NCBI GenBank assembly: GCA_001673575.1
Contig: LZME01000042.1
Location: forward strand, 1 to 59,275
Origin: Mycolicibacter heraklionensis
Lineage (GTDB): Bacteria > Actinomycetota > Actinomycetes > Mycobacteriales > Mycobacteriaceae
Length of the DNA: 59,275 bases
Direction of reading: 5' to 3'
Shown piece by piece: positions 44,540 through 45,919 of this stretch (the stretch's first letter is position 1; the number at the start of each line of letters is the position of its first letter). The notes under the pieces were generated by a model. The model did no database searches, had not been told where the DNA came from, and worked only from the letters and a program-made list of their open reading frames with translations. A program made the position numbers and the translations under genes.

Positions 44540-45919
44540 ATGCGGTGCGAGGTAGTGCGCGAGACCCTGTCGTCGCTGCTCGACGGTGAGCAGCAGGAGC
44601 TGCCGGCGCAGCAGGTCGATGCGCATTTGGCATCATGCCGCGGCTGCCGGCGCTGGCTGGTCGGCGCTGCCGCCCAGGCCCGCCGGCTCACGGACATCAA
44701 CAGCGACACCGACACCGACGCCGGCCCTGACCTGGCCGCCCAGATCCTGGCGGCCGCCGGCGTGACATCGATCACCGCCGAGAGCGCCGACGACAGCTTC
44801 TGGTCGCGGTGGGGATTTCGACGTCCGGCGCTGGTTGCCGTCGGAGTGCTCCAGGTGGCGATGGCGGCCATCCAGATCGCAGGCGTGGACTTCGGCATGG
44901 TGTCGGCGCACGGCCACGGGCACGGCGCTGCCACCGGAGCGCATTTGCTGCATGAGTCCACCGCATGGTTGTTGGCGCTCGGCGGCGCGATGATCGCCGC
45001 CGGTATCTGGCCATCGGTGGCGGCCGGTGTCGCCGCGATCGCCGGGGTATATGCCTTGGCATTAGGCGGTTATGTGGCTGTCGACGCCTACCACGGTCAG
45101 GTGACCGCGGCTCGGATCGCCAGCCACCTGCCAGTGCTGATCGGCTTGGTGTTCGCTTTGCTGGTGGCGCGCCAGCGCATCGGCGGCGCAGGCTCGCGCC
45201 CGGCCCGCTGGGACGCCGACGGCGCCGCCGAAGGGGCGGCCTCGGCGGCGGCCGCCGGTCGGGGTCGCCGGCGTCATCTGCGGTCGGTCAACCACGCCGA
45301 CAGCTCTACGACCATGCGTCGTATTAGCGCCGCGACCCCGGGTCTAAGGTTGATGTTCATGGCGGGAGCTGACCGGATCGACGACGATGCTGTCACCGCC
45401 CTCGCCGTTGCCGCCGCAGCCGGCGATGCCCGTGCACTGGAGTCCTTCATCAAGGCCACTCAGCACGATGTCTGGCGATTCGTGGCCTACCTCTTCGACG
45501 GTGTCAGTGCCGACGACCTGACCCAGGAGACCTTCCTGCGGGCGATCGGCGCGATCCCGCGCTTCGCCGGCCGCTCCAGTGCCCGGACCTGGCTGCTGGC
45601 CATCGCGCGGCGGGTCGTGGCCGACCACATTCGCTACCTCAAGGCGCGTCCGCGCACCGCGCCGGGCGCCGACCCCGAGCTGCTGCTGGACCGCGACCGG
45701 CCCGCCCGCGGTTTCGAGGACGTGGTCGAGGTGACCGAGTTGATCGCCGACCTGTCGGCCGATCAGCGTGAGGCCCTGCTGCTGACTCAATTGTTCGGGC
45801 TGTCCTATTCCGACGCCGCGGCGGTCTGTGGCTGCCCGGTGGGCACCATCCGATCTCGGGTCGCGCGTGCACGTGATGCGCTGCTGGCTGATCCGGAACG
45901 CGGCGAGCTGACCGGTTAA
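44540..45919 (+). CDS. zf-HC2 membrane anti-sigma-like domain in frame with SigC (apparent fusion)
   Basis: One uninterrupted frame encodes 459 residues. Residues 1-45 form an anti-sigma zinc finger (C3, H29-x3-C33-x2-C36). Four hydrophobic helices follow at about 97-116, 141-158, 159-181 and 194-210. The loop between the first two is His-rich (SAHGHGHGAATGAHLLHE), suggesting metal binding. A basic linker (about 211-270) leads to a complete SigC-type ECF sigma factor (about 274-459). No stop separates the parts, so translation from ATG 44540 must yield a fusion. Topology allows both ends in the cytoplasm, so the sigma factor could be membrane-tethered. Free SigC may also arise from ATG 45359. 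A missed frameshift is the alternative. Confidence 0.65.
   Translation: MRCEVVRETLSSLLDGEQQELPAQQVDAHLASCRGCRRWLVGAAAQARRLTDINSDTDTDAGPDLAAQILAAAGVTSITAESADDSFWSRWGFRRPALVAVGVLQVAMAAIQIAGVDFGMVSAHGHGHGAATGAHLLHESTAWLLALGGAMIAAGIWPSVAAGVAAIAGVYALALGGYVAVDAYHGQVTAARIASHLPVLIGLVFALLVARQRIGGAGSRPARWDADGAAEGAASAAAAGRGRRRHLRSVNHADSSTTMRRISAATPGLRLMFMAGADRIDDDAVTALAVAAAAGDARALESFIKATQHDVWRFVAYLFDGVSADDLTQETFLRAIGAIPRFAGRSSARTWLLAIARRVVADHIRYLKARPRTAPGADPELLLDRDRPARGFEDVVEVTELIADLSADQREALLLTQLFGLSYSDAAAVCGCPVGTIRSRVARARDALLADPERGELTG
45345..45350 (+). promoter_or_regulatory. Possible -10 element for a leaderless sigC transcript
   Basis: TAAGGT fits the mycobacterial TAnnnT -10 pattern and ends 8 nt before ATG 45359. 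That is the codon giving the expected SigC N-terminus. No ribosome binding site lies before this ATG, which fits leaderless initiation. No -35 box is recognised. Confidence 0.4.
45359..45919 (+). CDS. sigC: ECF sigma factor SigC (internal start product)
   Basis: From the internal ATG 45359 the product has 186 residues, close to the 185 of M. tuberculosis SigC. Region 2 is SADDLTQETFLRAIGAIPRF and region 4 is LFGLSYSDAAAVCGCPVGTIRSRVARARDALLAD, both nearly as in SigC. M. tuberculosis SigC is linked to copper acquisition and has no known anti-sigma factor. Here the frame is continuous with an upstream zinc-finger membrane domain, so this entry is the same DNA as the 3' part of the fusion. An intrinsic terminator follows the stop. 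Confidence 0.8.
   Translation: MAGADRIDDDAVTALAVAAAAGDARALESFIKATQHDVWRFVAYLFDGVSADDLTQETFLRAIGAIPRFAGRSSARTWLLAIARRVVADHIRYLKARPRTAPGADPELLLDRDRPARGFEDVVEVTELIADLSADQREALLLTQLFGLSYSDAAAVCGCPVGTIRSRVARARDALLADPERGELTG

Follow-up and report, generated by a model that had tools for sequence, protein, structure and literature searches.

The window analysed here is a 59,275-nucleotide stretch of Mycolicibacter heraklionensis DNA (contig LZME01000042.1), and it carries at 44540-45919 on the forward strand a gene in which the sigma factor SigC is joined to an N-terminal zinc-finger and membrane part. The gene is a single ATG-started frame of 459 codons with no internal stop. The encoded protein matches Pfam zf-HC2 at residues 3-37 (33.2 bits, cut-off 22.2), DUF2275 at residues 62-241 (66.8 bits, cut-off 24.6) and, with Sigma70_r2 at 304-368 and Sigma70_r4_2 at 397-448, contains both sigma regions 2 and 4. 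The NCBIfam SigC model NF007231 scores 328.4 bits, above its curated cut-off of 219, and the frame and these matches together confirm the initial annotation, which had read the gene from a zf-HC2 motif through membrane helices into a full SigC. Over 88 and 61 aligned residues the sigma part shares 81% and 87% identity with the solved M. tuberculosis SigC domains, and the folds of the sigma regions match those of PDB entries 2o7g and 2o8x. The fused sigC is present once in the source genome, three weaker matches being other sigma factors.

The zinc anti-sigma (ZAS) motif is HX3CX2C with an upstream cysteine, and the N-terminal part of the fused protein fits it. The motif residues Cys-3, His-29, Cys-33 and Cys-36, which the initial annotation had listed correctly, do not vary among 24 aligned N-terminal parts, of which two come from outside the mycobacteria. 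The likeness to the ZAS proteins RsrA and ChrR extends to a weak match with the NCBIfam RsrA model (21.5 bits, cut-off 62.5), whereas the fused gene differs from them in adding four membrane helices, a Met/His-rich outer loop and a covalently attached sigma factor. AlphaFold places helices at residues 3-14, 23-32 and 34-55 in the zinc-finger part and four long helices at 94-113, 133-156 (130-156 in a second model), 158-184 and 197-215 (197-214) in the membrane part. The four membrane helices of the initial annotation agree with this model, and plain hydropathy gives three stretches, of which the middle could accommodate two helices. With an even number of helices the zinc-finger domain and SigC would both be cytoplasmic. 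The membrane part and SigC are joined by a linker (about residues 216-279) modeled as disordered with a predicted local distance difference test score (pLDDT) of about 30. The whole-protein model has a mean pLDDT of 68 and a predicted template modeling score (pTM) of 0.37, and the relative domain placement in it is not reliable; a separate model of residues 1-218 (pLDDT 73, pTM 0.53) agrees with it. A sequence search of the PDB with the membrane part (44540-45352) returned no matches at E <= 1.

The extent of the fusion is illustrated by 396 genomes sampled within the genus from a larger set; 121 of them have a strong sigC match (E <= 1e-90), and all 121 loci were read. In 100 of these the two parts are fused in one frame, ten have two genes, seven lack the membrane part, one has a decayed membrane part and three are cut by contig ends, two of the latter with no visible N-terminal part and one (G655) with a partial one. 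The fusion is the majority state among the sampled sigC-bearing genomes, with orphan SigC exceptional. Among named records, all 17 close loci that are complete are fused (L001-L007 and L009-L018; 16 from Mycolicibacter and one from Mycobacterium sp. UM_WGJ), a count that excludes L008 as it runs into N. The loci of M. colombiense and two other Mycobacterium are also fused, and six named loci are split, among them those of M. celatum, M. shimoidei, Mycolicibacillus trivialis and M. koreensis. The Mycolicibacter sp. MYC340 chromosome has two sigC fusion loci (L008 and L011) about 60 kb apart. A search with the Pfam DUF2275 model gives a match in only 12 of 301 family genomes, ten of them at fused sigC loci, and undercounts the arrangement, since protein-based classing finds far more (the fused G026, for example, is missed). 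The other two DUF2275 matches are partial and lie away from sigC (G187:C72:2902-3120, L051, and G004:C1:2386889-2387227, L052); G187 has no membrane part at its sigC. Four low-scoring SigC-like loci (L109-L112) were inspected, and none has the membrane part or the palindrome described below.

The linker codons contain a second layer of organization, a palindrome TACGAC-N5-GTCGTA, which the initial annotation does not mention, followed by an in-frame start. At least 11 of the 12 arm bases are kept in 120 of the 121 genomes, including 100 of 100 fusions, and all 12 are kept in 117; the exception, G590, has just 72 nt before sigC on its contig. Among 425,503 other positions in the same loci none reaches 11 of 12. 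The spacer is variable, with 38 forms in the 121-genome tally (the chance match of G590 counted in). In all 100 fusions the first base of the palindrome falls on a third codon position; a TAAGGT-like element follows 21 nt later in 98 of them, and an in-frame start lies exactly 8 nt after this element in every fusion (97 ATG, two GTG and one TTG). In the window this start is the ATG at 45359, 35 nt beyond the palindrome. The TAAGGT sequence lies where the initial annotation had put it, 8 nt before this ATG, and its description there as -10-like stands in part. As only 63 of the 100 fusions keep TA at its start (reading TA...T), the element may be as much a ribosome-binding sequence as a -10, or it may be both. 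In 56 close pairs synonymous divergence (dS) falls to 0.046 across the palindrome codons and to 0.036 between the palindrome and the internal start, compared with 0.31 in the preceding linker and 0.19 in SigC, and the ratio of nonsynonymous to synonymous divergence (dN/dS) of the linker before the palindrome (residues 217-254) is 0.27, all of these figures being indicative as the pairs are related and the stretch is short. The seven loci with no membrane part all keep the palindrome at 12 of 12 together with a start. Free SigC is probably also made from the internal start, as the initial annotation had suggested. The features of the locus are collected in Table 1.

Table 1. Coordinates of the fused sigC gene, the elements within it and the adjoining features of the window
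Feature	Position	Strand	Basis
Fused gene, zf-HC2 + DUF2275 (four predicted membrane helices) + linker + SigC, 459 aa	44540..45919	+	
zf-HC2, putative zinc anti-sigma domain, residues 3-37 (C3, H29, C33, C36)	44546..44650	+	
Four predicted membrane helices (DUF2275), both ends predicted cytoplasmic	44819..45184	+	AlphaFold; topology from even helix number
Met/His-rich outward loop and start of helix 2, residues 116-139 (H135, E139 invariant)	44885..44956	+	
Flexible linker, residues 217-279	45188..45376	+	pLDDT about 30; dN/dS 0.27 in residues 217-254
Palindrome TACGAC-N5-GTCGTA within the coding frame, very probably a BlaI operator (putative)	45307..45323	.	Conservation, low dS, same motif at blaI and other genes
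TAAGGT, -10 element and/or ribosome-binding sequence of the internal start	45345..45350	+	
Internal start ATG and free SigC, 186 aa (alternative in-frame ATG 45353)	45359..45919	+	Matches sigC start in split loci
Candidate promoter of the full-length fusion, CTTTG ... GACTAT, 6 nt before ATG 44540, leaderless	44503..44533	+	Conservation judged by eye
SigC-like promoter motif GGAACC-N16-CGACTAC facing the divergent PPE gene	44462..44490	-	
Divergent PPE gene, ATG probably at 44407, candidate SigC target	42890..44416	-	Pfam PPE 193.9 bits, PPE-PPW 65.3 bits

The neighborhoods of sigC in other genomes include an arrangement in which the two parts are separate. In Kutzneria (L030) and Actinokineospora (L031) a zf-HC2/DUF2275 protein of the same kind (33% and 35% identical) is encoded by a divergent gene on the opposite strand adjoining a sigC-like gene, which provides independent evidence that the two are partners. 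The initial annotation had suggested a search for the same fusion or for a separate gene upstream, and both are found, the second as this divergent gene in the outgroups and as the two-gene loci. A third outgroup-like locus, L032, is 28% identical. A tree of the sigma domain was built from 103 rows, 101 mycobacterial (near-copies and contig-edge loci dropped) and the two outgroups. The split lineages lie outside two fused clades, and the number of fusion events is left at one or two by an open fork (90/89). Loci with no membrane part are nested among the fusions at four places (G160 with G511, G187 with G612, G115 with G628, and the decayed G142 beside the fused G516), and the starred branches alone give at least two changes for these loci; G075, which also lacks the membrane part, was left out of the tree as a near-copy. 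In G142 (L081) the membrane part is decayed with its pieces in three frames, and the palindrome and sigC start are intact. The orphan SigC looks like a derived state, as the membrane part has been lost or has decayed at four places in the tree while the operator and start remain. Of the 121, the one nearest to M. tuberculosis SigC (89%) belongs to a fused locus, though the classes overlap widely and M. tuberculosis is not placed thereby.

The outward loop between the first two membrane helices is rich in methionine and histidine in 100 of 100 fusions, with three to six His and one to five Met. The His-rich loop noted in the initial annotation is present as written; its HGHGHG sequence is a local form of the more general loop, many other mycobacteria having HMHGAM there. 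Five residues at the predicted outer ends of helices 2-4, His-135, Glu-139, Asp-182, Arg-192 and His-196, are invariant in 24 of 24 N-terminal parts, the two outgroups included, suggesting that they form a ligand site.

The region 5' to the gene carries a CTTTG ... GA.xAT-N6-ATG pattern that recurs across clades when judged by eye, as if the full-length message were leaderless, and on the opposite strand a SigC-like motif, GGAACY-N16-CGACYAC, faces a divergent PPE gene. A simple screen upstream of the 121 loci finds a PPE-like start in at least 66, and the strict SigC-like motif occurs in at least 73 (the window itself misses by one base) and in none of the seven loci with no membrane part. 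The looser form of the motif has five exact sites in the source genome, and three of them lie at the PPE gene of the sigC locus, the PPE gene of a chalkophore operon and a gene for a heavy-metal (HMA) domain protein; the other two (L197 and L201) have no obvious link with SigC or copper. The motif is not enriched genome-wide (22 sites compared with 67 in the control allowing up to two mismatches, and five compared with nine exact), and only its positions are informative. The operon (C96:38458-47591, reverse strand, L212) has the order PPE, dioxygenase, thioesterase, FadD10, acyl carrier protein and nonribosomal peptide synthetase of an isonitrile lipopeptide pathway, followed by the small HMA-domain gene, with profile matches to ScoE-like (480 bits, cut-off 400) and FadD10 (854 bits, cut-off 726) and to the FcoT and synthetase domains. 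The motif of the HMA-domain gene falls within the last part of the synthetase frame and runs into the opening codons of the longest HMA frame, so that an HMA start farther along would be needed. In M. tuberculosis the expression of ppe1-nrp and ctpB increases when SigC is induced (PMC7924339), and a role for SigC in copper biology is supported (PMC9600254; PMC9147137); by contrast, sigma factor-independent chalkophore expression is also spoken of (PMC10449499).

Copper sensing by the outer loop is what we infer from these observations, and of the metal-sensor reading in the initial annotation it is the metal theme that finds support, in the loop and in the motifs at the chalkophore operon and the HMA-domain gene. 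The outer domain could instead respond to zinc, redox state, or envelope or respiratory stress with the His repeats being incidental, an alternative that appears unlikely and is nevertheless the strongest of those considered. It draws on the local nature of HGHGHG and on the outgroup proteins, whose corresponding loops have one (L030) and three (L031) His, and on the BlaI-type palindrome, which ties the gene to respiration. It fits less well with a Met/His-rich loop in every fusion, with the invariance of His-135, Glu-139, Asp-182 and His-196 on the outer face, and with candidate targets that are a chalkophore operon and an HMA protein.

Among the fusions the stretch separating the last membrane helix from the palindrome has 12 different lengths (101 to 134 nt), every one of which preserves the phase, and in the ten split loci all three phases between the membrane part and the palindrome occur; this retention of phase where the parts are joined, and freedom where they are not, is as selection for a joined product predicts. 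The frame may alternatively be translated and never act as a single protein, being cut at once or giving way to SigC made nearly all from the internal start, so that the fusion only couples synthesis. The disordered linker, the universal retention of the palindrome and internal start in fusions, the ten genomes with two genes and the listing of ECF36 fusions under activation by proteolysis (PMC8999054) are all in keeping with this, which is a little less probable than a sensor for some other signal, and the constant phase over 12 length variants speaks against it, as if the joining itself matters.

The identity of the palindrome is indicated by its other occurrences. The source genome has one exact copy, that in the sigC fusion, and ten copies with one arm base different. 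Four of the ten precede a BlaI-family gene (C33:38221), an atpI-like gene (C59:10668), cydA (C135:147) and a norB-like gene (C11:82575), and the other six (L114, L115 and L119-L122) lie inside open frames and look like chance occurrences. The BlaI-family gene matches Pfam Penicillinase_R, and the ATP synthase I-like gene scores 24.7 bits, just below the cut-off of 25.1. A second Penicillinase_R gene of the BlaI family lies at C65:69577-69918 on the reverse strand. In four other mycobacterial genomes TACKAC-N5-GTMGTA has 18 sites, of which 16 were inspected; 15 of the 18 lie at sigC (four), blaI (four), atpI-like (three), cydA (three) and ctaG-like (one) genes, and one precedes a gene with no named family. 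Five of the motif-flanked genes were assigned to their family by profile (three BlaI, one ATP synthase I and one CtaG) and the rest carry names given by eye on the basis of the N-terminal sequence. The ctaG-like gene, for cytochrome oxidase assembly, has its BlaI-type palindrome at G026:C1:280831. Exact motif counts exceed the reversed control in three of these genomes (five compared with one to two) and fall below it in G115 (three compared with five), and in the source genome one-mismatch palindromes are fewer than in the control (11 compared with 26 per strand).

The palindrome is shared with the BlaI (Rv1846c) regulon, at blaI, the atp genes and sigC, and the fused gene differs in that its copy sits buried in the codons of a longer gene. 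In M. tuberculosis both sigC and atpH are reported to belong to that regulon (PMC8265638), and gel shifts indicate that BlaI binds the Rv1303 promoter (PMC12565901). The buried palindrome is very probably a BlaI operator permitting the synthesis of free SigC from inside the gene, and from the genes that it precedes BlaI looks more like a respiration and copper regulator here than a beta-lactamase one. That the palindrome is the operator of some other regulator is improbable: the source-genome sites outside sigC each differ by one arm base, yet the motif stands before blaI in four of four other genomes (and in the source genome with the one-base difference) and before atp genes, and sigC, atpH and Rv1303 are already reported as BlaI targets. 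Finally, an assembly or sequencing artefact in which a missing stop or a frameshift joins two genes can be rejected with near certainty, since although ten of the 121 genomes do have two genes, the fusion is in one frame and in the same phase in 100, single-contig assemblies such as G026 and G031 among them, and the frame check suggested in the initial annotation reveals no frameshift.

The fusion itself is already known in print. A 2022 review (PMC8999054) notes that some sigma factors of the extracytoplasmic function (ECF) group ECF36/SigC carry an N-terminal DUF2275 anti-sigma fusion with three to four membrane helices, and names an M. heraklionensis protein (KLO31890.1) as the model. The fused protein described here falls within this definition, as its membrane helices and DUF2275 share one frame with the sigma factor. 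KLO31890.1 has the same architecture and, from species and architecture, is presumably the protein of the M. heraklionensis locus L001 (93% identical). One sentence and a table row of the review on ECF36 contain nothing on the buried operator, the internal start, the split and lost states or the targets in fused species. The same source describes sigma and anti-sigma parts in one membrane-tethered chain for IutY (ECF243) and for ECF48, ECF52 and ECF53; there the anti-sigma part is C-terminal, whereas in the fused SigC it precedes the sigma factor and is followed by a second start. A literature search (DUF2275, ECF36, SigC, BlaI and chalkophore) did not find the buried palindrome and start, the derived orphan SigC or the fused-species targets, though most subscription papers were outside the search and absence is not proven. 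SigC of M. tuberculosis differs in being reported as monocistronic with no anti-SigC factor identified, that is, without the fused membrane part. By the title of work by Chang from 2012, sigC is also said to be expressed from two promoters and not to be auto-regulatory.

Taken together the data are best accommodated, with somewhat more than even confidence, by a membrane-tethered ECF sigma factor with its own anti-sigma domain, a copper response and a BlaI-controlled internal start. The N-terminal zinc-finger domain would be SigC's own anti-sigma factor, tied to it through the four membrane helices and the flexible linker, and with both ends in the cytoplasm it would fold back and keep SigC inactive. 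The Met/His-rich outer loop with His-135, Glu-139, Asp-182 and His-196 would probably respond to copper status and free SigC by a conformational change or by proteolysis. The freed SigC would then turn on copper acquisition through the divergent PPE gene, the chalkophore operon and perhaps the heavy-metal-domain protein. The linker would serve as a second control unit containing the BlaI operator, a promoter and/or ribosome-binding element and the in-frame start, and release of BlaI would allow untethered SigC to be made together with cytochrome bd and ATP synthase. One gene would in this way have two outputs, a tethered copper-sensing SigC and an untethered SigC from a BlaI-repressed internal promoter, with copper and respiratory status converging on copper acquisition, a proposal held with slightly less confidence and only just favored over its negation.

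The data suggest that an anti-sigma factor once took the form of a fused membrane sensor and disappeared from some lineages, in which a BlaI-type operator and a start are left. A regulatory unit and start are kept inside the codons of a longer gene across many lineages, and the arrangement offers connections, open to testing in non-tuberculous species, between BlaI and SigC on one side and respiration and copper uptake on the other.
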